From assembly GCA_016873675.1 (NCBI GenBank), contig VGWG01000008.1:1-53006 (forward strand): a stretch of 53,006 bases of DNA, given 5' to 3'. Positions 25,341 to 46,696 of the stretch are shown here, piece after piece. The stretch comes from Lentisphaerota bacterium (GTDB taxonomy: Bacteria; Verrucomicrobiota; Kiritimatiellia; RFP12; JAAYNR01). The position numbers were made by a program, and so were the translations under genes. Each line of letters opens with the position of its first letter. Positions within the stretch are counted from its first letter, which is position 1. The notes below the pieces were generated by a model. The model was not told the DNA's origin and did not search any database. It saw only the letters and a program-made list of their open reading frames with translations.

Positions 25341-26818
25341 CAGCCTTCCGCCGTGATCGGCTTTTGCCGAGCACACGAGGCCGCCCCGCACTGCCGGCAA
25401 CCGCTGCCGCACGAGACATCCTCGCCCGTCCAGCAGAACGTGCAAATGTTTTTGCGCGGGAGGCCGATCGCATCGGCCAAGTCCTGCACACGCTGATACT
25501 TGAGCGACGTCAGGCCGAGCCGTTTCTGGATACGCCCGACCATCTCCTGATGCCGCCCGCCATCGGGATCGACATAATCCCGGGGGTCAGCCGCGTCGCC
25601 CTCCAGTTCCTTGATGGTGCGGCGCGCGGCGAGGTCCTGCTCGCTCGTGGAGCGGGAGAAGTTGAGAAACTTGCAGCCGAAGAGCAACGGCGGGCAGGCG
25701 ATCCGCATGTGGATCTCGCGCGCGCCGTCGTCGTAGAGCCTGTGCACCTGGTCGCGGAGCTGAGTGCCGCGAACGATCGAGTCGTCGCAGAAGATCAGGC
25801 TTTTTCCGCGAATCAGGTCGGCAATCGGAATCAGCTTCATCCGGGCAATCAACTCGCGATGCTCCTGAACCGAGGGCATGAAGCTCCGCGGCCAGGTGGG
25901 TGTGTATTTGACGAACGGCCGCGCAAAAGGTATGCCCGCTGCGCGGGAATACCCCAGCCCATGCCCCATGCCGGAATCGGGGATTCCGGCCACAAAATCG
26001 GCGCGCAACCCGCCGTCGTGCTTCGCCAGCGCCTCGCCGCACCGGTAACGGACACTCTCCACGTTTTGCCCCTCGTAGGACGACGCGGGGTACCCGAAAT
26101 AGACCCATAGAAAGGCGCAGATCGCGAGCTCGGCGCCCGGCTCGCGGCATGTCTCGACGCCATCCTGCGTCAGCCGGACAATCTCGCCCGGGCCCAGGTC
26201 ACGCACCGGCAGATAGCCCAGATTGGGCAGGCTGCACGACTCCAGCGCGAAAGCGCGCGCATCGCCCTTTTCCCCCAGCGTCACGGGCGTCCGTCCGTAG
26301 CGGTCGCGGGCCGCGAACAGGGTTCCGTCATCCTTCAACACCAGCACCGAGCAGGACCCGCAAATCCGCTCCTGGGCATAGCGGATGCCAGCCTCGAACG
26401 AATCCTGCGTATTGATCAACGACGCAACCAACTCGGTCGGATTGACCCCGGCGCGGCTCATTTCAGAAAACTGCACGCGGTGCTTGGCGTAAAGCTCGGC
26501 CACCAGCTCCGGCAGGTTGGTCACCACGCCGACCGTGACAATCGCAAACGTGCCCAGATGCGAGGCGATGATCAGGGGCTGGTCCTCAAAATCGCTGATC
26601 ACTCCCACGCCCGCACGGCCCTTGAAGAGGTTGAAGTCGCCCTCAAACTTCGAGCGAAACTGAGACGTGCGGATGTCGTGAATCACCCGCGTGAAGCCAT
26701 CCTCGCCCAAAACCGCCATGCCCCCCCGCATCGTGCCGAGATGCGAATGGTAGTCGGTACCGTAGAACAGATCGGTCACGCAATCGTGCTTGGCCACCAC
26801 GCCGAAAAAACCGCCCAT
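25340..26818 (-). CDS. amidophosphoribosyltransferase-like protein with Gly in place of the catalytic Cys
   Basis: 492 residues, PurF fold. The N-terminal Ntn-glutaminase domain begins MGGFFGVVAKHDC, where standard PurF has MCG with Cys1 as nucleophile; here it is Gly. The rest of the domain is well kept (HLGTMRGGMAV, and ARDRYGRTPV later). The phosphoribosyltransferase domain has IFCDDSIVRGTQLRDQ (PRPP loop, near residue 340). A Cys cluster at the C-terminus (ICTFCWTGEDVSCGSGC) resembles the Fe-S ligands of the Bacillus-type enzyme. Start at 26818 is chosen on the family motif; the frame extends 12 codons further. Could use ammonia, take amide from another subunit, or do another job. A paralog may exist elsewhere. 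Confidence 0.82.
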   Translation of the reverse strand: MGGFFGVVAKHDCVTDLFYGTDYHSHLGTMRGGMAVLGEDGFTRVIHDIRTSQFRSKFEGDFNLFKGRAGVGVISDFEDQPLIIASHLGTFAIVTVGVVTNLPELVAELYAKHRVQFSEMSRAGVNPTELVASLINTQDSFEAGIRYAQERICGSCSVLVLKDDGTLFAARDRYGRTPVTLGEKGDARAFALESCSLPNLGYLPVRDLGPGEIVRLTQDGVETCREPGAELAICAFLWVYFGYPASSYEGQNVESVRYRCGEALAKHDGGLRADFVAGIPDSGMGHGLGYSRAAGIPFARPFVKYTPTWPRSFMPSVQEHRELIARMKLIPIADLIRGKSLIFCDDSIVRGTQLRDQVHRLYDDGAREIHMRIACPPLLFGCKFLNFSRSTSEQDLAARRTIKELEGDAADPRDYVDPDGGRHQEMVGRIQKRLGLTSLKYQRVQDLADAIGLPRKNICTFCWTGEDVSCGSGCRQCGAASCARQKPITAEG

Positions 26819-26869
26819 ACTCAAACACTCCCGTTGAGAGCCAACAACCCACATCTGACCCGAATCAGC

Positions 26870-26898
26870 AGAATACCCTACTTCGGCGGGCCGCTCAA
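26870..26898 (-). promoter_or_regulatory. promoter of the purF-like operon
   Basis: On the minus strand TTGAGC (26893-26898), a 17-bp spacer and TATTCT (26870-26875), about 52 bp before the ATG at 26818. It shares the gap with the divergent metX-metW promoter. Confidence 0.55.
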
Positions 26899-26941
26899 CC
26901 TAAAACCTAAAATTAGAATTGCTGCAGCCAGCAATGAGTCC

Positions 26942-26970
26942 TTACCAGACGCGCCGTTTTATGATACAGT
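26942..26970 (+). promoter_or_regulatory. promoter of the metX-metW operon
   Basis: TTACCA at 26942-26947, a 17-bp spacer and TACAGT at 26965-26970, 41 bp before the ATG at 27011. No SAM- or T-box-like riboswitch is visible in the short leader. Confidence 0.5.
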
Positions 26971-27010
26971 GACGCCCGAACAAAACGCGACTTGGGAGCA
27001 CACATTCAGC

Positions 27011-28867
27011 ATGTCCAAGGCCACAACCAGTTCTGATTCGGTCGGTGTCGTCGAGCCGCAGACGCTGCGACTGAATCTGCCGCCGGGCGGTCTCCGCCTC
27101 GAGCGGGGCGGTCTTCTGCCGGAGGTGGACATCACCTACGAGCGTTGCGGGACACTCAACCCGGCCGCCGACAATGTGATTTTTGTCTGCCACGCCCTGA
27201 CCGGCGACGCCCACGTCACCGGCATTCGCCCCGGCGAAACCCGACCGTCGGGCTGGTGGCAGGATATGATCGGGCCGGGACTCGGGATCGACACCCGCCA
27301 CTATCACATCGTCTGCGCCAACATCCTGGGCGGATGCAAAGGCACCACGGGACCCGCATCCATCAATCCCGCAACCGGGACACCGTATGGCTCGCAGTTC
27401 CCGGAGATCACCGTCGGCGACATCGTGACCGTGCAGCGCCTGCTGCTCGACCAACTCGGCATCCCGTATCTGGCGGCGGTGATCGGCGGCAGCTTCGGCG
27501 GCATGCAGGCGCTGGAATGGGCGATCCGCTATCCGGATTTTGTCGGCCGCAGCATCGTGATCGCCGCAGCCGCCAGCCTCAACACTCAGGCGCTGGCCTT
27601 CGACATCATCGGCCGCCAGGCGATCGTGCAGGACCCCGCGTGGCGCCACGGCGATTACTACGACCGCGCCGACGGACTCGGACCGCCCAGGCAGGGACTG
27701 GGCAGCGCCCGCAAGCTCGCGCACGTCACCTACCTCTCGCAACAACTGATGGAGACAAAATTCGGGCGCGAGAAACGGCCCGAATGGCTGAACGCCGACG
27801 ATGCGTTTCACGCCGAGTCGCGCCGCACCTTCCGATCCTATTTCCAGATCGAGAGCTATCTCGAACACCAGGGCGCCAAGTTTGTGGAGCGGTTCGACGC
27901 CAACTCGTACCTCCACATCACCCGGGCCATGGACGATTACGATCTGGAAGATGCATTCGGCTCGCTCGACAAGGCTTTTGCCGGGGTCAAGGCGCAGATG
28001 CTGATCGTCGCCCTCAGCGGCGACTGGCTCTTCAAACCTGAACAGTCGGCCGAACTGGTCACCGCGCTGATCCGCAACCGCAAGCGGGTCTCGTACTGCC
28101 ATCTCGACGCCCCGGCCGGCCACGACGCCTTCCTGACCCATATCGCCGACTTGAAGCGGGTGATCCGCGCCTTCCTGCCGTGGGTGGGGACGCCGGAGAC
28201 CGGCGGCAACACCGTCAGTGGCAACCGGTTTGACGAGCTGGAGGACGCGATCATCGTCGGCCTCGTCCAGCCCGGCAGCCGCGTCTTGGACCTCGGCTGC
28301 GGCGACGGCGCCCTCATCTCCAGGCTCGAACGCGAACGACAGGTGGCCGGCACGGGCGTGGACATTGACCTCGGCCATATCGTCCGCACGATCGACGCCG
28401 GACACAACGCCCTCCTCGAAGACATCAACGACGGGCTCCAGATGATCCCCGATGACTCGTATGACGTGGCCGTTCTGGGCGAAACCCTTCAGGTCGTGCT
28501 CCGCCCGCGCGATGTGCTCCACCAGATTCTGCGGGTCGCCCGCGAAGCCGTGGTCGCCTTTCCCAACTTCGGCTATCTCCCCGTCCGCGGAGGCCTCCTT
28601 CTCGCAGGCCGCATGCCCAAGGCCAAAGCCCTTCCGTATGAATGGTACGACACGCCCAACATCCACCTCTTCACCCTCGCCGACTTCCTCCGCCTGTGCG
28701 CACAGGACGGCATCACGGTGAAGCGAATCCACGGCCTCTCCCGCAGTTGGATCGGCCGCCTGCTATGCCGCCTCGGCTTCCACAATCTGGGCGCCGACCG
28801 CGTCATCGCCCACGTCACCCGCCCCTCAAACACGGACCGTCCAAACCCGGTCACGGATGATCCCTAA
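27011..28867 (+). CDS. metX-metW: homoserine O-acetyltransferase fused to MetW
   Basis: 618 residues, two proteins normally encoded side by side. Residues about 15-395 are a MetX alpha/beta hydrolase: nucleophile Ser161 in GGSFGGMQALEW, oxyanion region CHALTGDAHVTG, Asp338 in LSGDWLFKP and His371 in PAGHDAFL. It acetylates (or succinylates) homoserine for methionine synthesis. Residues about 410-605 are MetW, a class I methyltransferase-like domain: VLDLGCGDGALIS (from Val425), GVDIDLGHIVRTID, VLGETLQVVLRPRDVL and FPNFGYLPVRG. MetW is needed for MetX activity in some bacteria. A short linker (TPETGGNTVSGNR) joins them. No frameshift or stop is present, so the fusion is real as read. Next gene is cysE, 11 bp on. 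Confidence 0.95.
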   Translation: MSKATTSSDSVGVVEPQTLRLNLPPGGLRLERGGLLPEVDITYERCGTLNPAADNVIFVCHALTGDAHVTGIRPGETRPSGWWQDMIGPGLGIDTRHYHIVCANILGGCKGTTGPASINPATGTPYGSQFPEITVGDIVTVQRLLLDQLGIPYLAAVIGGSFGGMQALEWAIRYPDFVGRSIVIAAAASLNTQALAFDIIGRQAIVQDPAWRHGDYYDRADGLGPPRQGLGSARKLAHVTYLSQQLMETKFGREKRPEWLNADDAFHAESRRTFRSYFQIESYLEHQGAKFVERFDANSYLHITRAMDDYDLEDAFGSLDKAFAGVKAQMLIVALSGDWLFKPEQSAELVTALIRNRKRVSYCHLDAPAGHDAFLTHIADLKRVIRAFLPWVGTPETGGNTVSGNRFDELEDAIIVGLVQPGSRVLDLGCGDGALISRLERERQVAGTGVDIDLGHIVRTIDAGHNALLEDINDGLQMIPDDSYDVAVLGETLQVVLRPRDVLHQILRVAREAVVAFPNFGYLPVRGGLLLAGRMPKAKALPYEWYDTPNIHLFTLADFLRLCAQDGITVKRIHGLSRSWIGRLLCRLGFHNLGADRVIAHVTRPSNTDRPNPVTDDP

Positions 28868-30488: not shown

Positions 30489-31207
30489 ATGCTCCCTTTC
30501 GCAAACGCTTTCTGACCGCACTGGCCTTGATGACCATCGCCGGCGGCTTGATCTGGTGGGGCGCGAAGCCCGTCATCCGGATGTGCGGTCTGGCCGCGCT
30601 CGCCGCTTCGGCCCTGAGTCTCGCCCTCTCGGCCCGCGACCTGCGCCATCATCGCCGTCACGCCAAGACCTATGTCCGCCACTTCGCGGTGGCCTATGCG
30701 CCCCATTTCGTGCTTGCCATCCTCTTGGCTCACCTCCTCCGCGCTTGGGTCCTCTTTGCCCCCCCCACCCTCTCGCCGCTGCTGGCGGTCGGCGGCGTGC
30801 CGCTGCGCGAACAACTCGACGCCGACACGGCCCGCCTGCTCGCCCTCAGCGGCAACCCCGATGCCGACATCCCCGTCTGCCACACGATCACCACGCGCTA
30901 CCAGACCTTCTACCAGATCGATCCCGTCGCCGACCCCCGCAGCCATGCCGACGCCTTTCTGCTCGCCTTCGCCGCCCTGCTGCGCGAGAACGCGCTCCGC
31001 ACGACCCCGCACGACGCCATCACCGATGACCGCGCGGCGACCCGCCTGGCCGCCAGCGCCGCCTATCTCCCGCTCGTCCGAAACAACAGCCCCGACAACC
31101 CCCTCCTGCCGCTGATCGACGCCGATCTGAAGACCCTGCCTGCGCGGCTCCTGCGCCCCCTGCGCTTCCCCCTGCACGCGCTGCGCCGGTATGCGATCGA
31201 GGAGTAA
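30485..31207 (+). CDS. hypothetical membrane protein
   Basis: 240 residues; I do not recognise the family. Three hydrophobic segments are predicted at about residues 9-27, 30-50 and 67-91, followed by a soluble domain of about 150 residues rich in Ala, Leu and Arg. There is a motif-like stretch HTITTRYQTFYQIDPVADP and no obvious catalytic signature. The start overlaps the CDP-alcohol phosphatidyltransferase stop (ATGA) and the stop is 4 bp from the nspC start, so translation is probably coupled. It might assist or regulate the phosphatidyltransferase. Confidence 0.6.
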   Translation: MNAPFRKRFLTALALMTIAGGLIWWGAKPVIRMCGLAALAASALSLALSARDLRHHRRHAKTYVRHFAVAYAPHFVLAILLAHLLRAWVLFAPPTLSPLLAVGGVPLREQLDADTARLLALSGNPDADIPVCHTITTRYQTFYQIDPVADPRSHADAFLLAFAALLRENALRTTPHDAITDDRAATRLAASAAYLPLVRNNSPDNPLLPLIDADLKTLPARLLRPLRFPLHALRRYAIEE

Positions 31208-31211
31208 GTCC

Positions 31212-32390
31212 ATGAATCCCCAGACGATCCCCACCCCCGCCTTTGTCGTCGACGCCGCCGCCCTGGACCGCAATGTCGCGATCCTGGCTCAGGTCAAGGC
31301 GCGCACAGGCTGCACCATCCTCCTCGCGCTCAAGGCATTCTCCATGGTTGCGGCGTTCGACCGGATCCGTACCCGGCTGGACGGCGTCTGCGCCAGCTCG
31401 CTCCACGAAGCCCGCCTGGGCCGCGAAGGCTTCGGCGGCGAGGTGCATGCCTTCGCTGCGGCCTTTTCCGAAACCGACTTCCGGGAGATGCTGCCGCTGA
31501 TCGATCATGTCACGTTCAATTCCTTTCGCCAGTGGCGTCAGTTCCGTCCCCTGCTCGAGGCCGCCGGCCATCCCATCGCCGCCGGCTTGCGCATCAACCC
31601 GGAACACAGCGAGGGACACACCGCGCTCTACGACCCCTGCGCCCCCCGCTCGCGCCTCGGCATCCGGCGCGACGCCTTTCAGGGCGAGTCGCTCGACGGG
31701 CTCACCGGCCTGCACTTCCACTGCCTCTGCGAACAGAATGCGGATGTGCTGGAGCGGACGCTGGCGGCGGTCGAAGCCCGCTTCGGGGATCTGATCCCCC
31801 GCTTCGCGTGGATGAATTTCGGCGGCGGCCATCACATCACCCGCAGCGATTACGACGTGGATCGGCTGTGCCGTATCCTCACTGATTTCCGCGCGCGCCA
31901 CGCCGACATGACGGTCATCCTCGAACCGGGAGAGGCCGTCGCCCTCAACGCCGGCGTTCTGGTCGCCACGGTTCTCGACGTGGTGGTCAACGAAATCCCC
32001 ATCGCCATCCTCGACGTCTCGTGCACCTGCCACATGCCCGACGTGCTGGAAATGCCTTACCGTCCGCGGGTCTACCGGGGCGAGGCGTGGGACGGCCGCG
32101 CCGACGCGCCCGCAGGCGCCGAGTTCGGCGGCGCGCCCGGCGAGAAATCCTGCACCGTCCGCCTCGCCGGCCCCTCGTGTCTGGCGGGAGACTGCATCGG
32201 CGACTATTCGTTCGCACGCCCCCTCCGCCCCGGCGACCGGCTGGTCTTCGAAGACATGGCCCACTACACCATGGTCAAGACAAACACCTTCAACGGCATC
32301 AACCTGCCCGCCATCGTGCTGCGCCAACCCGACGGCACGCTGACCGGGGTCCGCCGCTTCGGCTATGCCGACTTCGCCGCGCGGTTGTAA
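31212..32390 (+). CDS. nspC: carboxynorspermidine decarboxylase
   Basis: 392 residues, fold III PLP enzyme. Decarboxylates carboxynorspermidine or carboxyspermidine to the polyamine. The PLP lysine is in ALKAFSMVAAF (about residue 38), EPGEAVALNAG binds cofactor phosphate, and the second-subunit catalytic Cys is in LAGPSCLAGDCIG. FNSFRQWRQF and GLRINPEHSEGH are family motifs. ATG at 31212 is chosen since a frame 7 codons longer starts inside the upstream gene. Carboxynorspermidine dehydrogenase is not in the window; speA, 15 kb away, supplies agmatine for putrescine. Confidence 0.93.
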   Translation: MNPQTIPTPAFVVDAAALDRNVAILAQVKARTGCTILLALKAFSMVAAFDRIRTRLDGVCASSLHEARLGREGFGGEVHAFAAAFSETDFREMLPLIDHVTFNSFRQWRQFRPLLEAAGHPIAAGLRINPEHSEGHTALYDPCAPRSRLGIRRDAFQGESLDGLTGLHFHCLCEQNADVLERTLAAVEARFGDLIPRFAWMNFGGGHHITRSDYDVDRLCRILTDFRARHADMTVILEPGEAVALNAGVLVATVLDVVVNEIPIAILDVSCTCHMPDVLEMPYRPRVYRGEAWDGRADAPAGAEFGGAPGEKSCTVRLAGPSCLAGDCIGDYSFARPLRPGDRLVFEDMAHYTMVKTNTFNGINLPAIVLRQPDGTLTGVRRFGYADFAARL

Positions 32391-32418: not shown

Positions 32419-34446
32419 ATGTCACGCTTGCCCTTCAGCATCGCCGCAACCGCATCCCACTCGGGCGCTCGCGCGGCGGAATTTGAGACCCGGCATGGCC
32501 GGGTTCAGACGCCGGTGTTCATGCCGGTGGGCACGCAGGCCACGGTCAAATGCCAGACCGTGGATTCGCTGCGTGAGGCCGGGTCCAGCGTGCTGCTGGC
32601 CAACACCTACCACCTCATGTTGCGCCCCGGCGCAGCCGTATTTGAGCAATTCGGGGGCATTCACCGCTTCATGCAGTGGGATCGCCCGGTGCTGACCGAC
32701 TCCGGCGGCTACCAGATTTATTCCATGCCGCAGGATTGCCGGCTCACCGAGGCAGGCGCGCAGTTTCAGAGTTATATTGACGGGCGCTGGGTCCTGCTCT
32801 CCCCGGAGACCAGCATCGCCATGCAGCGGGTGATCGACAGCGACATCATGATGCCGCTGGATCACTGCATTTCGTCCACGTCACCCCGCGCCGAAGCCGA
32901 ATCCGCGATGGCGCGAACGCACCGCTGGGCGCTGCGAAGCCTGGAGGCGCGCGGCGATTCGCCGCAGGCGCTGTTCGGCATTGTGCAGGGCGCGGCATTT
33001 CCCGACCTGCGCGAGGCCAGCTCCGCCTATTTGACCAGCCTGCCGTTCGATGGCTTTGCGGTCGGCGGCCTCGCCGTGGGCGAGACGCGGGAGCAGCGCG
33101 AGGATCTGACCGCCGCCGCCACCGCCGGTCTGCCGCATGACCGGCCCCGCTACCTGATGGGCGTCGGCACGCCGGTGGATGTGCTCGAGGCGGTGCATCG
33201 CGGCGTGGACATGTTTGACTGCATCATCCCGATCGCGCTCGCTCAGCGCGGCACGGCCTATACCTCGGAAGGCCGCCTGCACATGCGGCGCGGGTGGTAC
33301 CGGCTGCAGGATCAGCCTCTGGATCCGGGCTGCGCGTGCTCGACCTGTCGCCACTATTCACGGGCGTATCTCCACCACCTCTTCAAATCGGATGAAGCGC
33401 TGGGGTGGCATCTGCTGGGACTGCACAACCTCCATTTCTACCATCACCTGACCCGGGAGATCCGGGCGCGCATTGTGGCGGGTGATTTTCTCGCGTACTA
33501 CCGGGCGCAGCGGGAAGCCTTGGCGCGCGTCGATGGCGACTCGCCGGGCGCGCGCCGTCCGCAGCCGCGGCCCGTGCCACGCCTGCGGCTGGGTGACTAC
33601 GAAGTGCAGCGGGCGGAAGCGGGGTTTTCCAGCATTCGCCACTGCAGCTCCGGCGAGGTCATGCATTCCGTCAGCAATCCGGTCGAGGAGTCGCGCCGGC
33701 TGTATGTGGAGCAGTCCGGGCTGACCGGGCGTCTGCGCCTTCCGGAGGCGCCGGAACTGGTGGTGTGGGATGTCGGCCTGGGCGCTGCAACCAACGCGAT
33801 GGGAGCGGTGCGCTGCTGGGAAGCCGCACAGGCAGACGGCCGGCCGATCCGCCCGATGCGGATCATCAGCTTTGAGCGCGACCTCGATTCGCTGCGCCTG
33901 GCCGTTCGCCACGCGGCCCATTTTCCGCATCTGCACCATGCGGCGCCCAGCGCCATTCTCCAACACGCCTGCTGGGCGCATGCCACACGCGGGCTGCACT
34001 GGACCCTGCTGGCGGGTGATTTTAGCGAGCACCTGACGTCGGCACCCCGGCCGGATCTGATTTACTTCGACCCCTTCTCCTACAAGACCGACGGCGCGCT
34101 CTGGACGGCCGCGATGATGGCTCGGATCTTTCAGGCCTCGGCTCCGGGCGAAACCGCGCTCTTCACCTATACCGCCTCCACCGCCATTCGCGCGGCGTTG
34201 CTGGCGGCCGGTTTCTATGTCGCGCGCGGCGTGCCCACCGGACCCAAGGCCGAAACGACGGTGGCGTGTACGCATCCGTCCTGCTTGTCCGTTGCCGGGG
34301 TTGCGGCGCCGCCGCTGCTGGATCATCAGTGGCTGGAGCGCTGGGATCGCAGCGGCGCCCGTTATCCATCCGATATCGCGTCCGACGCACAGACCGAATT
34401 TGCCCGGCAGATCTTCGCCCATCCGCAGTTTGCTGGCCAGACGTAA
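32419..34446 (+). CDS. tgt: queuine tRNA-ribosyltransferase fused to an MnmC-type methyltransferase domain
   Basis: 675 residues. Residues 1-370 are Tgt, which exchanges guanine-34 for preQ1 in tRNAs with GUN anticodons: Asp94 in LTDSGGYQIYSM, nucleophile Asp267 in VDMFDCIIP, and zinc ligands Cys305, Cys307, Cys310, His336. The segment after Asp267 (PIALAQRGTAYTS) differs from the usual PTRNARNG. Residues about 385-655 resemble the SAM-dependent part of MnmC (DUF752): VVWDVGLGAATNAMG (from Val448), LIYFDPFSYKTDGALW, LFTYTASTAIRAALLAAGF. MnmC makes the last step of mnm5U34. Both halves thus act on wobble base 34. The FAD half of MnmC is absent. No stop or frameshift separates the parts. Confidence 0.9.
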   Translation: MSRLPFSIAATASHSGARAAEFETRHGRVQTPVFMPVGTQATVKCQTVDSLREAGSSVLLANTYHLMLRPGAAVFEQFGGIHRFMQWDRPVLTDSGGYQIYSMPQDCRLTEAGAQFQSYIDGRWVLLSPETSIAMQRVIDSDIMMPLDHCISSTSPRAEAESAMARTHRWALRSLEARGDSPQALFGIVQGAAFPDLREASSAYLTSLPFDGFAVGGLAVGETREQREDLTAAATAGLPHDRPRYLMGVGTPVDVLEAVHRGVDMFDCIIPIALAQRGTAYTSEGRLHMRRGWYRLQDQPLDPGCACSTCRHYSRAYLHHLFKSDEALGWHLLGLHNLHFYHHLTREIRARIVAGDFLAYYRAQREALARVDGDSPGARRPQPRPVPRLRLGDYEVQRAEAGFSSIRHCSSGEVMHSVSNPVEESRRLYVEQSGLTGRLRLPEAPELVVWDVGLGAATNAMGAVRCWEAAQADGRPIRPMRIISFERDLDSLRLAVRHAAHFPHLHHAAPSAILQHACWAHATRGLHWTLLAGDFSEHLTSAPRPDLIYFDPFSYKTDGALWTAAMMARIFQASAPGETALFTYTASTAIRAALLAAGFYVARGVPTGPKAETTVACTHPSCLSVAGVAAPPLLDHQWLERWDRSGARYPSDIASDAQTEFARQIFAHPQFAGQT

Positions 34447-38674: not shown

Positions 38675-39160
38675 TTAGGTGTTGAGATAGGGCGTCAGGG
38701 CGGCTTCGTCCACCACCTCGACGCCGGTCTCGGCCTGGACGCGGGCAAGGTCGATGCCGTGCTGCTGCGCCAGACGGCGGGCCTTGGGGGTTGCCCGCAC
38801 ACGCGTCGCAGCCAGCGGCTGGGCGGCGGCGGCGGCAGCAGCGGCGGGTGCCGATCCGGTGGCGGACCGGTACGCGGCCAGGAGGGCGGCGTTCGCCGCC
38901 TCGGCGCCCGGGTCGGAAGCGCCCGGGTCGCCGATGATTCCGATGACATAGCCCGACGGGACCACGCTTGGAGGGGCCGCCAAAATGGCGAGCAGGGTTC
39001 CGGAGGCCGGTGCCTCCATGTCAAAGGCGGCCTTGTCGGTGGTCAGTTCGGCAATCGTCTCGCCCGCAACGACGCTGTCACCGAGTCGCTTGCGCCAGGC
39101 GGTAACGGTCACGTCAATGGTATTGGCGTCGAGCTGCGGAATCTGGATACGCGTGGTCAT
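38675..39160 (-). CDS. lipoyl-domain / E3-binding-domain protein without acyltransferase core
   Basis: 161 residues. Residues 1-80 are a biotinyl/lipoyl domain, with the modified Lys43 in ELTTDKAAFDMEAP. An Ala/Pro linker follows, then a peripheral-subunit-binding domain (about residues 120-155: RATPKARRLAQQHGIDL), the E3 contact of 2-oxo-acid dehydrogenase E2 proteins. The catalytic acyltransferase domain (normally another 230 residues with the HxxxDG motif) is absent and the frame ends cleanly. It might tether lipoamide dehydrogenase or act as an accessory carrier. The start overlaps the stop of the giant upstream gene (ATGA). Confidence 0.85.
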   Translation of the reverse strand: MTTRIQIPQLDANTIDVTVTAWRKRLGDSVVAGETIAELTTDKAAFDMEAPASGTLLAILAAPPSVVPSGYVIGIIGDPGASDPGAEAANAALLAAYRSATGSAPAAAAAAAAQPLAATRVRATPKARRLAQQHGIDLARVQAETGVEVVDEAALTPYLNT

Positions 39161-42100
39161 GGTCTGTTTCCCTCTTTTTCTTCAGCGGGCAGCTTGTCAG
39201 AAAGCGGCACAGGCGGCACGGGAATCATGTAGACCGGCGAGCGGTTTCCGGCGCGGTCGCTGACGCGGACATCGAGCCACACGGCATCGATCGGCCGGCT
39301 GACGCGGGAGGGGCGGATGGCGAGCTGTGCCGCGCGGCCACCCGTCCAACTCAGACCCTCGATGCCCGACATATCATACGCGGCGAAGCGGACAATGTGC
39401 GTGTCGCCATAGGGCGCGAGGACCGCCGCGCTCCGGATCTGGAACGCGCGTGCTCGCTTCTCCGGGAACGCAAGAACAATCTCGCGGAGATCGGGAACCG
39501 CATCGATGCCAGCCTCCGCGCGCAGAATGTCATGAATGTTGATCATGACATTTTGCCACTCGCCAGCCTGCCACGTGCGCGTGCCGAAGACGAACGGATG
39601 AGGCGCTCCAGGCGCTGGAAGTTGCAGGATGTAAGCGCCGTGGGTTTTCGGCTTAGCCGCCTTTTCGGGCACGGCCCTCGGCACGAGGCGGATTTCGACC
39701 ACAGGCGGCGGATTGGTGTCCCCTGCCAGTGTGCGGATGCTGAACCCGAACCATCCCCGTTTGCCCGTCTCCAAACCGGGGTTGTATCCGTAGGCGCGAC
39801 GCAACTGGGTAGCTCCAATATCCAGCGTCTTGAATTCAAACACGACCGATCCATCTTCGACCGTCTGGGTCTGGCCTTCGCCGACTTGATTGAAGAACTG
39901 GGCCAGGTTAACGTTGCTCGGCTGCCAGGCCTCGATGTTTTCCGGCGGGACGAGAGGGAGGACGGTGGGCGGCGTCTTGTCGTTGCCCGTGTCCAGCGTG
40001 ATCGGGATCTCATAACGGGGCAGGGTGTTGCCCGCGACATCGCTCACGCCGTTGATCGAGATCGTGAGGGTATCGCCCGGCCTGGTGGTCTGAAGTTGGC
40101 GGCGCAGGAGCCAGGGCCAGTCAATCTCAAGCTGAACGCGCGAGGCGGAGAACGACACACGTCCGTTGTCCTGGGCGAGCGCAAGCTCCGAACCGTTGCT
40201 CGCGAGCTTCATGTTGCGCAGGAAAGGCATGGCGGATCCGCCCTCGATGGTGACGTTCAGACAGGTCTTGTTATATCGGTCGGTTGCGGCGACGGCATGG
40301 GTGATCACGGGCGGCGTGCGATCCAGCAAAAACGGGAGGTCGGCGACAGGCGAGACGTGTCCCGCCGCATCGCGGCCCCGAACCACCAGGTGGTGGATTC
40401 CCTCGGGCAGCGCGTCGGTGGCGGGGGTTGTCACTGCGGCGTTTGAGGCATCGAGCCAGCGGACGGCCTCCTGTCCGGAGGCATCGCGCAACGCCCACGG
40501 TTGCGGGCCTTGCGCGAAGGCGTACTGGACGGCGGCAAAATCACCGTCGGCATCGTCGTACACCGCGCGGAAGGCGAGGACTCGCCCGGGGCCGACGGCC
40601 GGCCCCAAGGCGAGGTCGTCGATCAGCAGCGACGTGTACAGTCCGGTCTGATCCCGGACTTGGCGCGACCCGACACGCAAATCGCCGGGGCGGAAGTCCA
40701 GTCCGGTTGTCAGGGGCGCCTCGTTGGATACGGCCAGCGGCGAACCGAGCCACGTCTGCCAGGTGTCTTGTGTTGCGGCCAGACCGCCGAGGGTAGCGGG
40801 CAGCCCCCCGTTTTCGGTCAAACGCATCTGGAGCCGTCCAGCCACGAGCGAGACGCGGGACATCGCTTCGGCGCGGTAAGCGAATTGGATCAGCGGTGTA
40901 AGAAACGGGTCATAGGCAGGGGCGAGGCAGGCATCGAGCCGCGTCTGCTGGCCGCGGTTGGCGATCTTGAGAACCGTGCCGTAGCCGGCGCCGCCGCGCA
41001 TCAGGCTCACGACTGCACTGCCGGCAAAGGGACCGACATCGAAGGGCCGGTCGTCAAAGGTGGTCAGCCGCCCCTCGGGGAGTTCCAGAGCGAGGAGCAC
41101 GGGAGGGGTGCCCGGCTCCGGCGGTGACGCGAGCGCTTGGCGGAAGGTGCGGCCGTCGGCAAGCTCGACACGCACGACCGGCTTGCGGTTCTTCAGCTTG
41201 CGCGGCAGGAAAATGCGGGTGACGGCATTCCCAAACGTGAAGGTCGCCGTCTGGTCGTCGATCCAGACCGCGCGGGGCGGCAGGAGGGGACTGTTCCACG
41301 GAGTGGATGATGCAAGCGTGGCGGTATCGGGATTATCGGGGTCGCGCTCCGCAATGAGATCAAAAGAGGCATCGGACGGAACCGCCCATTCGATGCGCAC
41401 CCCTTCCGGAAAAGCCTCCGGCGGCAGCGCCAGAATGTGGAGCTGGCCCGGGGGGAGATCGGCGATGGCGGCGTTCACCTGATCCATGGCTTCATTCGCG
41501 ACGTTTCCGCTCACGTCCGGCCGGCCGCGAAAAACGGGGCGGAAATTGCGAACGGCATACCAGGTTCCCGGGGCGTTGCCCAGCAACCCCTGTTGCACAT
41601 CGCTGGGCTGGAGATTGCCGAACCCGTCGAGGCGGACGCTGAGGCCGGAACTCAGGACCTCGCTGGGAAGCCACGCATAGACGGGTGTCCAGACGGGCGC
41701 ATCGGCCGAAGGTGACGGCGGGACCGCGCCGGCCCGCCCCGCGATCCGCCGCGAGCCCCGGGTCTCGTCCGATCCGGTGATGACGAACGACCAGGCTTGG
41801 GTGGTCACAAAACCGTTAAGCGCGCCCGTTCCTGAGCTGAATTCAAGGTTGAAGGCCGCGTCGGCCGAACGGGCCAGATCGAAGCGCCACCCCAGGAGCC
41901 GGCTCGCCGCGACGGGCGGCAGCGTATTGGAGACCAGGAAGGTTCCGCCGCCGTGGTGGGCTGTCACGCACATTTCGGACCCTTCCTCGCCCCGGCGGAA
42001 ACGGACCACGGGACGTGAGACCGGATCGTCGGCGATCCAGCAGGCGTCGGTGAGCGCATCGGGAGAAAGACCGCATACGGCGGTCCGCAGCAGCGGCAGC

Positions 42101-44919
42101 GAAGCGTCATCAGCCCCATGGGTCACGACATCACTCGCGGCGGAGCGCGGATCGATCTCGCGGCAGGCGAACGGCCGCGGCCGGATCGTCTCGGCCGCGA
42201 TGCGGACACGGGCGACCATCATCGAATTGCGAAAGGTCCAGATGCCGAACGAACCGCTGGCGAGGGGGTCGGGATCGGTGAACTCCAGGGCGGGAAGGTT
42301 GTCAAAGATCACCTGCAACCGGTCGGCGACGCGGCGGAGGCGCACGCCGTACCACGCGCCATGGACATCGCGTTGGTTTCCGCGATCACTCCTCAACAAC
42401 GGCTCGTAGCCGCCCAGCCGGAAATTGCCCTCGCGGATTCGAGGCACCAGATAGCTCGTGCTGTTGGTGACCATCACGCCGTTGCGGAAGAGACGCGTGT
42501 TGTTTTGCGAATGATCGGGGTCCCACCCCGTGAGCGTCACGGTGTAGCCATCGCTGGTGGCGCCCCGCTTGGAGAGGACGGTCATGTTGATGTCGCCGCA
42601 CCGGTCATACCAGGTGTGCCGCATGCCGGCATAGATCTCGGCGCAGAAGTCGCCCGAAAAATCGTATTTTGCCCACAATGCGGCGAGCGAATCGCCATTC
42701 TCGCCGTTCATGTGGGACCAGGTGGGCTCGCACTGGAAGCGGTTGACCACCTCCCAGACGCCTCCATTGATCGTCCAGTTCTGGAGCGATTCGTTAAAGA
42801 GGGTGTCGAAGACGTTTTCACGGCGGACCAGCGATTGATGGAGCGCGGCCTCGTCAAAGCCCTCGACGCGGACGCGGCGCCCGGCGGCGGGCTGCGGGAG
42901 ATGGGCGGTCGCCAGCAGGCGGGAGTCGTCGCCGAGCCAGAACACATGGTCTTCAAGCCCCACGGTGTAGAGACGGTTTGAGCCGTTGACATCGGCCTCA
43001 TGAATCGGGACATTCGTGACCGCGACACGGAACTGGGGTTCGTCGCCCAACGCGGGGATGATGCCCAGAATCTGACCCTCGCGAATTTCGAGCCGGCAGA
43101 CGGCATTGGATCCCGCCTCGTCGGTGGCCAGATGGATCGCGGATGGCTCGGCGGTGACGGGCATGCGGAGGCGGATGCGGCGAATCATGTCGCCGCGCAA
43201 CCACGTGGCCTGTTCACGGGAGGTATGCCATTGCCCCTCGGGGGAGGCCCAATGCCGCATGAAGGGGTCCTTGACATACTGCATGTTTTTCTCAAACCGG
43301 TCCGCAAAGGCAGTCGATCGGGTCGTGTATTCCGGGAGGGTGGTCGAAACCCCGCGACCACCCGACACGGTGATCGCGCCCAGGCCTCCGAGCGGCAGGT
43401 CGGTGCGGTGGAAGAGGACCTGCCGATCGTCGGCAAAGGCTCGCAATTCGCCCGGCTGCAGGGCATCGAGCGTGAGCCGGATGTCGCGCCCGGGATTCAG
43501 GGGCCGCGTCATGCGATCCACGACGACGGCGCGGGTCCCCTCTTGACGCAGCAGGGTGAACACCCGGTTGGTGGCCGTCAACAGACAGGTGAAGTGCCAG
43601 GCGGGTGCAGCGGGCGTCCCGTTGCCGACCATCAGGCCCAGAATGACAGGCGCCTCGCTCCTCTCACACAAGAAGCGGGCGGAGAGGCGGTGCGGGGCAT
43701 CGGTATCGGATCCAAAGCGCCACATCCTGTCGCCCTGGCCCCTAAAGGCTAGGCTTGCAGCGCGCGGCAGGCGGACTTCGGTGTCCGTCCCGCGCCAGGC
43801 GACATCGCCGACGATCTGTCGGGTGACGGCCGCGAAGGCCTCGGCGCCGTCAAAGGGATACTCCTCGTGCGAGGCGGCTGAAAAATCATCAAACCGCGTG
43901 CCCTCCTCCGTACACGCAATGAGGCCGTAGCGTCCCCCCGGCGGCAGATCGGGACACGGGCGGTTCACGAGCTCGATCCCGTCGACGACGATCTGCAGAC
44001 GGTCGTCAAAGATCACCGCCTCGAGCTGAAGCCACTGACCCGGCGTAAGGTCCGTCTGGAACGCATGGAGCACCCTCCGCGTCAACCCGCGGGAGATCGA
44101 TCCGCGCCACAATTCAATCACCAGATGCTCGCTCACGGGATCGGTGCGCGCGGTGAGCCCGTGGCAATCGCCCGCCTCGGTCGCGAGAAAGACGATGCCA
44201 TTGACCCCGGAATTGTGTTGCACGGCGGCCCGCACCGAATACGAATCGCGGAACGTCTCGCCGGCGAGGATCACGGCGGAGGTGCCGGTGCCGAGGAGGC
44301 TATAGAAGTTCGGGCTGCGGACGGGCGTAGGCATGCGGCCGCCGCGAAGTTTGCCGATCTGCGAAGCGAGCCTGTTGGTCACGGCGTGCAGCGACCACGA
44401 TCCCTGGATCGGATCCCACATCCCCGAAAGCTTCTCCCCCTCCGGAACCATGAAGGCGTCGTCAAAGCGGAACGAGCCCAGCCGCTGGGTGTAGCTGTCG
44501 CGCTCCTCCTCGCCGGGCAACACCGAGGCCTCGACGGCGAGGGACACGCTGTTGGTTCCGAGTTCCCTGAAACGGGCGACCGGCGCATCCGCGACATAGA
44601 GCGTCCAGGCGCGCGGCTGACGCTTGAAGACCAGCCAAACCCGGTTTGTGGTGATCGGAGGCGGTGATTGGAGAAACACGCCATCGGCCGGTCCGTCCGA
44701 GCGGGTTGCGCCGGGCGTGATCCGTATGACGTTGGTCACTCCGTCATGCGCCAGCTGCACCGCCAGACCCGCGGCCGTCCAGCGGCACAAAACGGCACCC
44801 AGCTCCTTGCGACCGGCCAGCGTGAATTGGGGCTCAAATGCGACGGCATGCGCCGATGCACCGCACAGAAAGGCGGCAAGCGCGAAGAGACACCGCGTGC
44901 TTGAAAAAAAGGGCCGCAT
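39157..44919 (-). CDS. very large secreted protein with LamG-like domains
   Basis: 1920 residues from the ATG at 44919, where a clear signal peptide begins (MRPFFSSTRCLFALAAFLCG, ending in AHA). The open frame runs 85 codons further upstream, but that part would precede the signal. Several concanavalin/LamG or DUF1080-like beta-sandwich segments are visible, about residues 120-340 (SYSVRAAVQHNSGVNGI, QIVVDGIELVN), 440-580 and 700-930 (NWTINGGVWEVVNRF, GSFGIWTFRNS). Ig-like or cadherin-like strands come near residue 1450 (YDDADGDFAAVQYAFAQG, VRGRDAAGHVSPV). No catalytic motif or C-terminal anchor was found. Likely glycan binding or cell-surface adhesion; function not known. Confidence 0.75.
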   Translation of the reverse strand: MRPFFSSTRCLFALAAFLCGASAHAVAFEPQFTLAGRKELGAVLCRWTAAGLAVQLAHDGVTNVIRITPGATRSDGPADGVFLQSPPPITTNRVWLVFKRQPRAWTLYVADAPVARFRELGTNSVSLAVEASVLPGEEERDSYTQRLGSFRFDDAFMVPEGEKLSGMWDPIQGSWSLHAVTNRLASQIGKLRGGRMPTPVRSPNFYSLLGTGTSAVILAGETFRDSYSVRAAVQHNSGVNGIVFLATEAGDCHGLTARTDPVSEHLVIELWRGSISRGLTRRVLHAFQTDLTPGQWLQLEAVIFDDRLQIVVDGIELVNRPCPDLPPGGRYGLIACTEEGTRFDDFSAASHEEYPFDGAEAFAAVTRQIVGDVAWRGTDTEVRLPRAASLAFRGQGDRMWRFGSDTDAPHRLSARFLCERSEAPVILGLMVGNGTPAAPAWHFTCLLTATNRVFTLLRQEGTRAVVVDRMTRPLNPGRDIRLTLDALQPGELRAFADDRQVLFHRTDLPLGGLGAITVSGGRGVSTTLPEYTTRSTAFADRFEKNMQYVKDPFMRHWASPEGQWHTSREQATWLRGDMIRRIRLRMPVTAEPSAIHLATDEAGSNAVCRLEIREGQILGIIPALGDEPQFRVAVTNVPIHEADVNGSNRLYTVGLEDHVFWLGDDSRLLATAHLPQPAAGRRVRVEGFDEAALHQSLVRRENVFDTLFNESLQNWTINGGVWEVVNRFQCEPTWSHMNGENGDSLAALWAKYDFSGDFCAEIYAGMRHTWYDRCGDINMTVLSKRGATSDGYTVTLTGWDPDHSQNNTRLFRNGVMVTNSTSYLVPRIREGNFRLGGYEPLLRSDRGNQRDVHGAWYGVRLRRVADRLQVIFDNLPALEFTDPDPLASGSFGIWTFRNSMMVARVRIAAETIRPRPFACREIDPRSAASDVVTHGADDASLPLLRTAVCGLSPDALTDACWIADDPVSRPVVRFRRGEEGSEMCVTAHHGGGTFLVSNTLPPVAASRLLGWRFDLARSADAAFNLEFSSGTGALNGFVTTQAWSFVITGSDETRGSRRIAGRAGAVPPSPSADAPVWTPVYAWLPSEVLSSGLSVRLDGFGNLQPSDVQQGLLGNAPGTWYAVRNFRPVFRGRPDVSGNVANEAMDQVNAAIADLPPGQLHILALPPEAFPEGVRIEWAVPSDASFDLIAERDPDNPDTATLASSTPWNSPLLPPRAVWIDDQTATFTFGNAVTRIFLPRKLKNRKPVVRVELADGRTFRQALASPPEPGTPPVLLALELPEGRLTTFDDRPFDVGPFAGSAVVSLMRGGAGYGTVLKIANRGQQTRLDACLAPAYDPFLTPLIQFAYRAEAMSRVSLVAGRLQMRLTENGGLPATLGGLAATQDTWQTWLGSPLAVSNEAPLTTGLDFRPGDLRVGSRQVRDQTGLYTSLLIDDLALGPAVGPGRVLAFRAVYDDADGDFAAVQYAFAQGPQPWALRDASGQEAVRWLDASNAAVTTPATDALPEGIHHLVVRGRDAAGHVSPVADLPFLLDRTPPVITHAVAATDRYNKTCLNVTIEGGSAMPFLRNMKLASNGSELALAQDNGRVSFSASRVQLEIDWPWLLRRQLQTTRPGDTLTISINGVSDVAGNTLPRYEIPITLDTGNDKTPPTVLPLVPPENIEAWQPSNVNLAQFFNQVGEGQTQTVEDGSVVFEFKTLDIGATQLRRAYGYNPGLETGKRGWFGFSIRTLAGDTNPPPVVEIRLVPRAVPEKAAKPKTHGAYILQLPAPGAPHPFVFGTRTWQAGEWQNVMINIHDILRAEAGIDAVPDLREIVLAFPEKRARAFQIRSAAVLAPYGDTHIVRFAAYDMSGIEGLSWTGGRAAQLAIRPSRVSRPIDAVWLDVRVSDRAGNRSPVYMIPVPPVPLSDKLPAEEKEGNRP

Positions 44920-45046
44920 GAAAAGCCTTCTTCTAAAAGTTGTACCCGCACTAAGGCTAGCAGAAATCATGCCACCGGTGAAATGGCCGTGCAAAGGCCC
45001 CGGCTGTGGTGCGCCGATGGTGTTGCATGCCGGGGCGCATTCAGGT

Positions 45047-46696
45047 TCACTCCGTCTCGTCACAATCGAGCCGCACAGGCTTCGGTTTGATCGCAGGGGT
45101 TGTGGGGGGCTCGGACCATGCGATGGCGCCATCCGCGCCGACAAAGCCTGCGGCGACCGCCAGATTGGCGCCATAAAAGTCCGCTTCGGGGGTATAGACC
45201 ATCACATCGGGGATCCGGTCATAGCGATGGTTGTCGGGGAGGGCCGCGCCCCACGGAATGCCGCACTGTACCACCGCCGTGCGGTTGGTGTTGAACGGGC
45301 TTGCGGCGGTAAACCAGAGACCCTGGCCCGCGCGGGGAAAGACGCGCCCGCCGATGCGGAAGGTTTCGGCTGTGCAGGAAACACCGTTCCGCTCGAAGAT
45401 GCGGCGGATCAACGGACTCGACTCGGGCTCGCCCAAGACAAAGAGATTCAGCGCGTCTGCCTCCCGGGCGATCAGGAGCGGTTCCAAGACGGCGCGGGGT
45501 TTGCCATGGGCGAAACGCAGCCATTCATCGGCGCATGCATCCAGGCGGCGCTGCGCCTCAACATCGCTCAGGCTATCGGTTCCGCCGACCAGGACAAAGG
45601 GTTGCTGCAATGCGTTCTGCAAACGGCTGCCCGTTTCGCCCGTGCGCACGCCAGACACCGAGCCGCAGGCGTTGGTGACCGTGAGGTTGCCCTCCAGCCA
45701 GGCGGTGCCGACGGCGTTTGTCAGCATCTCCAGCGGCGCGCCATGGTCACCCACTGGATCGGCAATAAAGCGGGCATTGGGGTTGTGCGGCGCGACCGTG
45801 TCAAAGATCGCCCGGCCCTGGACCCAGCTGACCAAGCTGTCATTCTGGCCATGAACCGCGAGAATGGGCGTTGTTTTCAACCGATGCACCCATGCGGAGG
45901 CGAACTGGGCATCGACCAGCCGGCGCTGCCAGGGCGGCAGATCGTCGGGCTGCAGGTTGTGCCAGACGTAGAAATCACCGCGACCGGCGAGCACCATCAC
46001 CGCATTGAACCGTTCGGGATGGCGGGCGGCGATGCACCACGCGCCCAATCCGCCCATCGAATAGCCGACCAGGACGACGCGACGGGGATCGGTGCCATAA
46101 CGCGCCTGCATCTCGTCCATCACCCGGAGCACATCCTGCTCGCCGATCCCCTGAAAATCGGTGTTTCCCCGCCCGAAGGGGGCCACGATGCAGGCGCCGG
46201 TCCGATCCGCGACAGGGGTCAGGTCTTCGGGGAAAAAGGGAAGGTTGAAACGGTCATAATCCGGGGAATAGCCGTGCAGATAGACCAGCAGCGGCGCGGC
46301 CTTCCCCGACGTCCAGCCCGGGGGCAGGTAGCGAACGAACGGCTGGGCCGAATCGTCAACCGGACTGACATAGGCATCGATCCGGACACCCGGGAGCGGC
46401 GCGGGAGCGGCGTTCCCGGCCAGATTGCGGAGCGCGTCGCTGATGGCGGCATTTTCCCGGGCGCTCGCGTCCGACAAGTCGCGGTAGAGGTAGGGGTAGG
46501 CGTTGCGGTCGATGCGCTCCAGCAGCTCGATCCGGGCAACATGGAGGCGGACTCGCGCCACCTCCCATGCGCGCCAGTCTGAATCGGCTCGGAGCGGCAA
46601 GGCCCCCAGCAACAGCACGCCCAGGCGCGCCGCCGCGAGGGCGGCGCGGAAACGGTTCTCGCCTGAGCGGGCCGCAGTCCTGAGGCTGCCGGTCAT
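45047..46696 (-). CDS. secreted alpha/beta-hydrolase (esterase/peptidase-like)
   Basis: 549 residues. Signal peptide (AALAAARLGVLLLGALPLRA, near residues 17-37). The hydrolase domain has the nucleophile elbow GYSMGGLGAW (Ser about 211), a likely acid in HGQNDSLVSW and His in PVGDHGAPLE; the oxyanion region is LLVYLHGYSPDYDRF. It resembles PHB-depolymerase or S9-type feruloyl-esterase-like enzymes acting on plant or polymer esters. A further C-terminal beta-rich domain (about 330-549) has no match I recognise. The ATG at 46696 overlaps the superoxide reductase stop (ATGA). A 127-bp gap leads to the giant gene. Confidence 0.8.
   Translation of the reverse strand: MTGSLRTAARSGENRFRAALAAARLGVLLLGALPLRADSDWRAWEVARVRLHVARIELLERIDRNAYPYLYRDLSDASARENAAISDALRNLAGNAAPAPLPGVRIDAYVSPVDDSAQPFVRYLPPGWTSGKAAPLLVYLHGYSPDYDRFNLPFFPEDLTPVADRTGACIVAPFGRGNTDFQGIGEQDVLRVMDEMQARYGTDPRRVVLVGYSMGGLGAWCIAARHPERFNAVMVLAGRGDFYVWHNLQPDDLPPWQRRLVDAQFASAWVHRLKTTPILAVHGQNDSLVSWVQGRAIFDTVAPHNPNARFIADPVGDHGAPLEMLTNAVGTAWLEGNLTVTNACGSVSGVRTGETGSRLQNALQQPFVLVGGTDSLSDVEAQRRLDACADEWLRFAHGKPRAVLEPLLIAREADALNLFVLGEPESSPLIRRIFERNGVSCTAETFRIGGRVFPRAGQGLWFTAASPFNTNRTAVVQCGIPWGAALPDNHRYDRIPDVMVYTPEADFYGANLAVAAGFVGADGAIAWSEPPTTPAIKPKPVRLDCDETE

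Follow-up and report, generated by a model that had tools for sequence, protein, structure and literature searches.

The gene at positions 32419 to 34446 encodes a tRNA-guanine transglycosylase (Tgt) fused in one chain to an MnmC2/DUF752-like SAM methyltransferase, and the product of this fusion protein is probably a tRNA modification that has not been described so far. The window, i.e. the whole stretch of DNA that was analysed, comprises 53,006 nucleotides. Only one task is ascribed to bacterial Tgt, the insertion of preQ1 at G34 of the four GUN tRNAs. The existence of a second and widespread Tgt with kept chemistry, lost arginines and an amine methylase attached to it points to a hitherto unknown tRNA mark, and the fusion also offers a natural experiment on anticodon recognition by Tgt. 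Annotation pipelines would score the protein as an ordinary Tgt, which can hide a distinct enzyme. The reading favoured here, to which somewhat less than an even chance is given, is that of a dedicated second Tgt (TgtM), which would insert a preQ1-type base into a non-standard RNA target, where the base would then be N-methylated by the MnmC2-like domain.

Architecture and predicted fold

The coding sequence is one uninterrupted frame with an ATG at 32419 and a stop at 34446, and the 675 aa were assigned to the following parts:

32419-34446, plus strand: Tgt-MnmC2-like fusion gene, single frame of 675 aa plus stop, with 75 single-frame orthologs
32419-33528, plus strand: tRNA-guanine transglycosylase domain, residues 1-370 (Pfam TGT, TIGR00430 above cut-off, TGT fold)
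33529-33576, plus strand: linker, residues ~371-386 (pLDDT <50 at 375-383)
33577-34443, plus strand: MnmC2/DUF752-like SAM methyltransferase domain, residues ~387-675 (PF05430, NF033855, fold match to 3vyw, 2qy6 and 3awi)

The Pfam model TGT matched residues 16-365 of the fusion protein (E=3.6e-138) and Methyltransf_30 (DUF752, PF05430) matched residues 515-617 above its cut-off (E=1.4e-13). The NCBIfam model Q_tRNA_tgt (TIGR00430) was exceeded clearly (427.6 bits, cut-off 306.75). The score of 81.9 bits obtained with tRNA_MNMC2 (NF033855) at residues 411-616 lies below the equivalog cut-off of 136 bits and is nevertheless taken to reflect real homology. In a PDB sequence search the first half retrieved Tgts and the second half the Aquifex MnmC2 (3vyw). 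AlphaFold2 models were obtained for the whole fusion protein (pLDDT 89.1) and for the methyltransferase half alone (pLDDT 93.6, pTM 0.92). Foldseek assigned the Tgt half model to the TGT fold with a TM of up to 0.95 to 2ash, and the methyltransferase half model was matched best by PDB entries for MnmC2 of Aquifex (3vyw) and MnmC of E. coli, with 3vyw and 2qy6 as top fold matches. The Pfam and NCBIfam profiles revealed neither an archaeal-type PUA nor any additional RNA-binding domain in the fusion protein.

A preliminary description of this DNA had placed a Tgt with its aspartates and zinc site in residues 1-370 and an MnmC-type methyltransferase (DUF752) in the second half. The former assignment is borne out by Pfam TGT, TIGR00430 and the conserved residues, the latter by PF05430, the NF033855 homology and the MnmC2 fold; the placement of the second half in an unrelated methyltransferase family, considered there as a refutation, was checked, and profiles and fold gave DUF752/MnmC2 instead. 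The FAD half of MnmC is missing as had been described: MnmC1 is absent from the fusion, and none of 25 fusion genomes, the source genome among them, showed it above cut-off.

Distribution and genomic context

A scan of the contigs of bacterial genomes yielded 80 loci matching both halves of the fusion, 75 of which were extracted as one frame, including that of the isolate Geminisphaera colitermitum TAV2 (L030). Because the fusion recurs as one frame in 75 loci including an isolate, an assembly artefact, a frameshift or a sequencing-error join of two genes is ruled out. In the Tgt tree a single branch (SH-aLRT 99) separates the Tgt halves of the fusions from 39 ordinary Tgts, some of the ordinary Tgt rows having long branches. 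The fusion with its altered Tgt is a real and old protein.

Most carriers belong to Opitutales (Verrucomicrobiota); others are labelled Spartobacteria, Riflebacteria or assorted MAGs, the taxonomic labels of MAGs being unreliable. Within an even sample of the window's phylum, 9 of 214 genomes carried an intact fusion; there the model of the methyltransferase half gave 360-498 bits for intact fusions and at most 104 bits for every other DUF752 protein. As far as draft genomes allow absence calls, the fusion is absent from 19 other listed members of the window's order and from one of its family. The patchy presence together with the single clade suggests horizontal transfer in the history of the fusion. 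Phage origin was rejected, as phage records matched only the Tgt half, with less than 60% identity and none spanning 80% of the query.

Conserved gene neighbours were not found across the 80 loci, and no preQ1 riboswitch was detected in 12 loci at gathering thresholds. In the window, a PLP decarboxylase like carboxynorspermidine decarboxylase (31191-32390, plus strand; Pfam Orn_DAP_Arg_deC) lies 28 bases upstream of the fusion. It was rejected as an operon clue, since the adjacency was seen only in a 92% identical relative (L002). Two further proteins of the window were noted. One frame at 26480-28867 (plus strand) encodes a homoserine O-acetyltransferase-like alpha/beta hydrolase of the MetX type followed by MetW, i.e. 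a MetX-MetW fusion according to Pfam. The 2005-aa protein at 39157-45174 (minus strand) is probably an exported multi-domain protein; its sole Pfam match, to 3keto-disac_hyd, is sub-threshold (22.3 bits, cut-off 26.8).

A second Tgt beside an ordinary one

The source genome contains another, ordinary Tgt on contig C75, where it is cut by the contig edge. An ordinary Tgt, whole or as contig-edge or broken pieces, was present in 45/45 fusion genomes checked, three of which (G156, G163, G173) showed it only as pieces. The gene queA was found in all 44 fusion genomes checked and QueC was strong in 19/22, including the source genome. With ordinary Tgt and QueA present the queuosine job is already filled, and because ordinary queuosine synthesis is in place the fusion is a paralog and an addition to it. 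The preliminary description had not noticed that the fused Tgt is the second one of its genome. The first idea, preQ1 as end product through lack of queA, was rejected (queA 80/80). A third, very divergent Tgt-like protein with a 389-aa frame, 323 bits and a very long tree branch was observed in one genome (L118, G149 C16:168000-170500).

Residues kept and changed in the Tgt half

Residues were counted in 75 fusion Tgts and 39 ordinary Tgts according to the Z. mobilis numbering. In the protein of the window the relevant sites are:

32698-32700, plus strand: Asp94 (Z. mobilis D102, catalytic), D in 75/75 fusions and 39/39 ordinary Tgts
33217-33219, plus strand: Asp267 (Z. mobilis D280, nucleophile), 75/75 fusions and 39/39 ordinary Tgts
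33229-33252, plus strand: altered loop PIALAQRG (271-278), with Ala273 and Gln276 at the Z. mobilis R286 and R289 sites
33331-33426, plus strand: zinc site Cys305, Cys307, Cys310 and His336 (CxCxxC...H), 75/75 fusions

The residues D102, S103, D156, C158, Q203, V233, E235, Y258, M260 and D280 as well as the zinc ligands were present in 75/75 fusions. This set includes C158 and V233, by which bacterial Tgt is tuned to preQ1 and against queuine (PMC3660597).

R286 and R289, which lie shortly behind the nucleophile, are arginine in 39/39 ordinary Tgts. At the R286 site the 75 fusions have glutamine (69), alanine (3), serine (2) or lysine (1), and at the R289 site glutamine (68), histidine (4), glycine (1), lysine (1) or arginine (1), so that lysine or arginine at either site occurs in only 1-2/75 and the arginines of ordinary Tgts are lost in almost the whole clade. 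In the 1Q2R complex both arginines presumably contact the U33-G34-U35 region. The N/H290 site is arginine in 73/75 fusions, and the E157 site is glutamine in 73/75 and histidine in the protein of the window. The ordinary loop PTRxAR(N/H)G is thereby turned into PxQLAQRG throughout the fusion clade. The segment after Asp267 had been called non-standard in the preliminary description, which proved right and became its most informative detail. The changes of the Tgt half go back to one ancestral event at the base of the clade and have been conserved since, and on this account the 75 sequences do not count as 75 independent events. Loss of K264 was dropped as a specificity change, since ordinary Verrucomicrobiota Tgts vary there too.

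Residues and decay of the methyltransferase half

The corresponding sites of the methyltransferase half are:

33766-33783, plus strand: SAM motif WDVGLG (450-455), with D451, G453 and G455 in 68/68
33874-33876, plus strand: Glu486 (E. coli MnmC E101, SAM binding), 68/68
34069-34071, plus strand: Asp551 (E. coli MnmC D178, methyl transfer), 68/68
34084-34104, plus strand: acceptor-side motif K556-T557-D558...W562, D558 in 64/68 of the clade

According to PMC3648344, SAM binding and methyl transfer by E. coli MnmC depend critically on E101 and D178, and the fusion keeps the equivalents of both. The acceptor side is changed: fusions carry KTDxxLW against (N/C)(P/T/S)xxW in other DUF752 proteins, with N or C in 10/10 non-fused relatives, and the N(P/T/S)xxW motif of MnmC2 is replaced by DGALW in the protein of the window. 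Where the function of DUF752 relatives has been tested, the methyl acceptor is a primary aminomethyl amine (PMC3648344). The closest relative of the fused methyltransferase half is a stand-alone protein (L115; G175, contig C21) with 154 bits, which keeps NPGMW.

In one genus (g111), represented by three species (G225, G228 and G237 with the loci L149, L150 and L148), the altered Tgt is combined with a decayed methyltransferase in a 571-aa protein. Its Tgt half has DQCIPST, PTQVAK(R/H)G and all catalytic and zinc residues. In the methyltransferase half SSGEVMHS and SFE are missing and GDF is changed to GPL; the protein ends before the catalytic Asp, and the NP/TD motif and the C-terminal third are lost. 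Downstream of the g111 genes no methyltransferase remnant was seen up to codon 150 in any of the forward frames. An ordinary Tgt is also present in each of the three species. The decay of the methyltransferase beside an intact Tgt half argues that the Tgt half has its own job, which outlives methylation, that the Tgt chemistry is primary and that methylation is a later tailoring step.

Genes of the U34 pathway

The gene mnmE, for which the preliminary description had proposed to look, was present in 29/30 fusion genomes. MnmE opens the ammonium route to nm5U34 (PMC3936742), so that the classical substrate of MnmC2 is available. According to work cited in the same paper, Aquifex DUF752 (MnmC2) functions without MnmC1 (PMC3936742), which leaves room for a role at U34. 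MnmL, as listed in PMC12548931, was found in only 3/35 fusion genomes; taken together with MnmC1 (0/25), the suppliers of nm5U are mostly absent. MnmM was found in 1/21 (G102). Besides the fusion, another nm5U methylase is encoded in two genomes, namely G149 (canonical DUF752) and G102 (MnmM). The fusion is usually the sole DUF752 protein of its genome, and a further DUF752 protein occurs less often in genomes with the fusion than another DUF752 protein does in those without it (2/44 vs 42/202, Fisher p=0.009, confounded by phylogeny), which could be due to replacement of MnmC2 or to phylogeny.

Proposed function and alternative explanations

A primary aminomethyl group is present at C7 of preQ1, the base inserted by bacterial Tgt, and at C5 of the uridine in nm5U, the acceptor of MnmC2. 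Since both share this group, insertion followed by N-methylation is the simplest reading. The Tgt half would insert a preQ1-type 7-deazaguanine by double displacement with Asp267 as nucleophile, at a target G whose context would be read differently from the U33-G34-U35 of ordinary Tgt. Once inserted, preQ1 would be N-methylated at its primary aminomethyl group by the tethered MnmC2-like domain. Because QueA builds on that nitrogen, N-methylation would oppose it; methylated preQ1 would be a poor QueA substrate and be kept out of the QueA/Q pathway. Two marks per cell would result: Q, made on GUN tRNAs by ordinary Tgt, QueA and the enzymes that follow them, and a mark of the N-methyl-preQ1 type on the target of TgtM. 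The specific product, N-methyl-preQ1 (7-methylaminomethyl-7-deazaguanosine), an undescribed nucleoside made by one dual-activity enzyme at a wobble or other G outside the GUN set, is put forward as a rather doubtful candidate. If true, it would be a second deazaguanine mark alongside queuosine in the same cell. The survey, which was confined to the open literature, brought up no description of a fusion of Tgt with MnmC, of a second Tgt in bacteria or of a tRNA nucleoside that consists of a methylated preQ1.

The preliminary description had proposed one protein for two wobble-base modifications, with the Tgt half inserting preQ1 into GUN tRNAs and the methyltransferase half converting nm5(s2)U34 to mnm5(s2)U34 in place of MnmC2. 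The kept MnmC2 fold and catalytic residues, the nearly general presence of mnmE, the rarity of other DUF752 proteins beside the fusion and the Aquifex enzyme acting without MnmC1 (PMC3936742) make this a live rival. It is a weaker one and on balance rather unlikely, given that an ordinary Tgt is already there, that the paralog lacks two otherwise invariant arginines, that KTDxxLW stands for NPxxW with the MnmC2 equivalog cut-off missed, and that G149 and G102 hold another nm5U methylase. As written, the claim is not supported: with the paralogy, the replaced arginines and the decay in g111, a step that tailors what Tgt has made is a better fit than a U34 methylase tethered to it without functional relation. 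The further suggestion of an action of the domain on queuosine or some other base came closer. In this direction, the same architecture and altered RNA target could be combined with methylation elsewhere, at another 7-deazaguanine side group (e.g. a Q-type amine) or at a neighbouring nucleotide of the anticodon loop. An acceptor motif unlike that of all MnmC2-like relatives examined and the tailoring character of the methyltransferase half speak for it; however, the acceptor of the tested DUF752 relatives is a primary aminomethyl amine (PMC3648344) and the Tgt half has a preQ1-type pocket, and we regard this variant as unlikely.

Other alternatives concern the Tgt half. Archaeal TgtA demonstrates that the Tgt fold can be aimed elsewhere, and with this precedent and the changed RNA-side residues, the modified site might lie outside position 34 of tRNA (in rRNA, in mRNA or at another tRNA position). 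This is improbable, considering that no archaeal-type PUA or extra RNA-binding domain accompanies the Tgt half, whose overall sequence is nearest to G34 Tgts. The Tgt half might also be only a scaffold that binds the anticodon loop and delivers tRNA to the methyltransferase, as the change of two otherwise invariant arginines could indicate. The invariance of catalytic, preQ1-pocket and zinc residues in 75 sequences speaks strongly against this, as does g111, where a dead methyltransferase and an intact Tgt half are the reverse of what a scaffold predicts; such a role is very improbable.

Comparison with known systems

The fusion resembles bacterial Tgt (TIGR00430; Z. mobilis, E. coli) in fold, the two catalytic Asp, the zinc site and the C158/V233 preQ1 pocket, but differs in the loss of R286/R289, the replacement of E157 by Q (H here), the ordinary Tgt alongside and the C-terminal methyltransferase. 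With MnmC2/DUF752, known as the N-terminal domain of E. coli MnmC and as stand-alone Aquifex protein (3vyw), it shares the SAM site, the E101/D178 equivalents and the overall fold; the Tgt partner, the lack of the FAD half, KTDxxLW for NPxxW and the sub-cut-off equivalog score set it apart. The stand-alone methyltransferase L115 has the C-terminal extension of the fused half, but is without Tgt and has kept NPGMW.

DUF752 is also the C-terminal half of another tRNA-modifying fusion, common in other Verrucomicrobiota, in which the N-terminal half is a radical-SAM protein of TIGR01212, a model we take to mark MnmL, and thus belongs to the classical mnm5U pathway. Such MnmL-MnmC2-type fusions of ~590-635 aa were read in L107 (G002) and L152 (G055), and L108 and L110-L112 are of similar length; a one-chain enzyme for cmnm5U to mnm5U is plausible. 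Their methyltransferase halves are distant and score no more than 78 bits with the fusion model, compared with 360-498 for members of the clade. Eukaryotic Tgt (QTRT1/QTRT2) is a further case of a Tgt family with a specialised paralog, yet QTRT2 has lost the catalytic Asp residues (PMC6165067), whereas the Tgt half of the fusion keeps its own.
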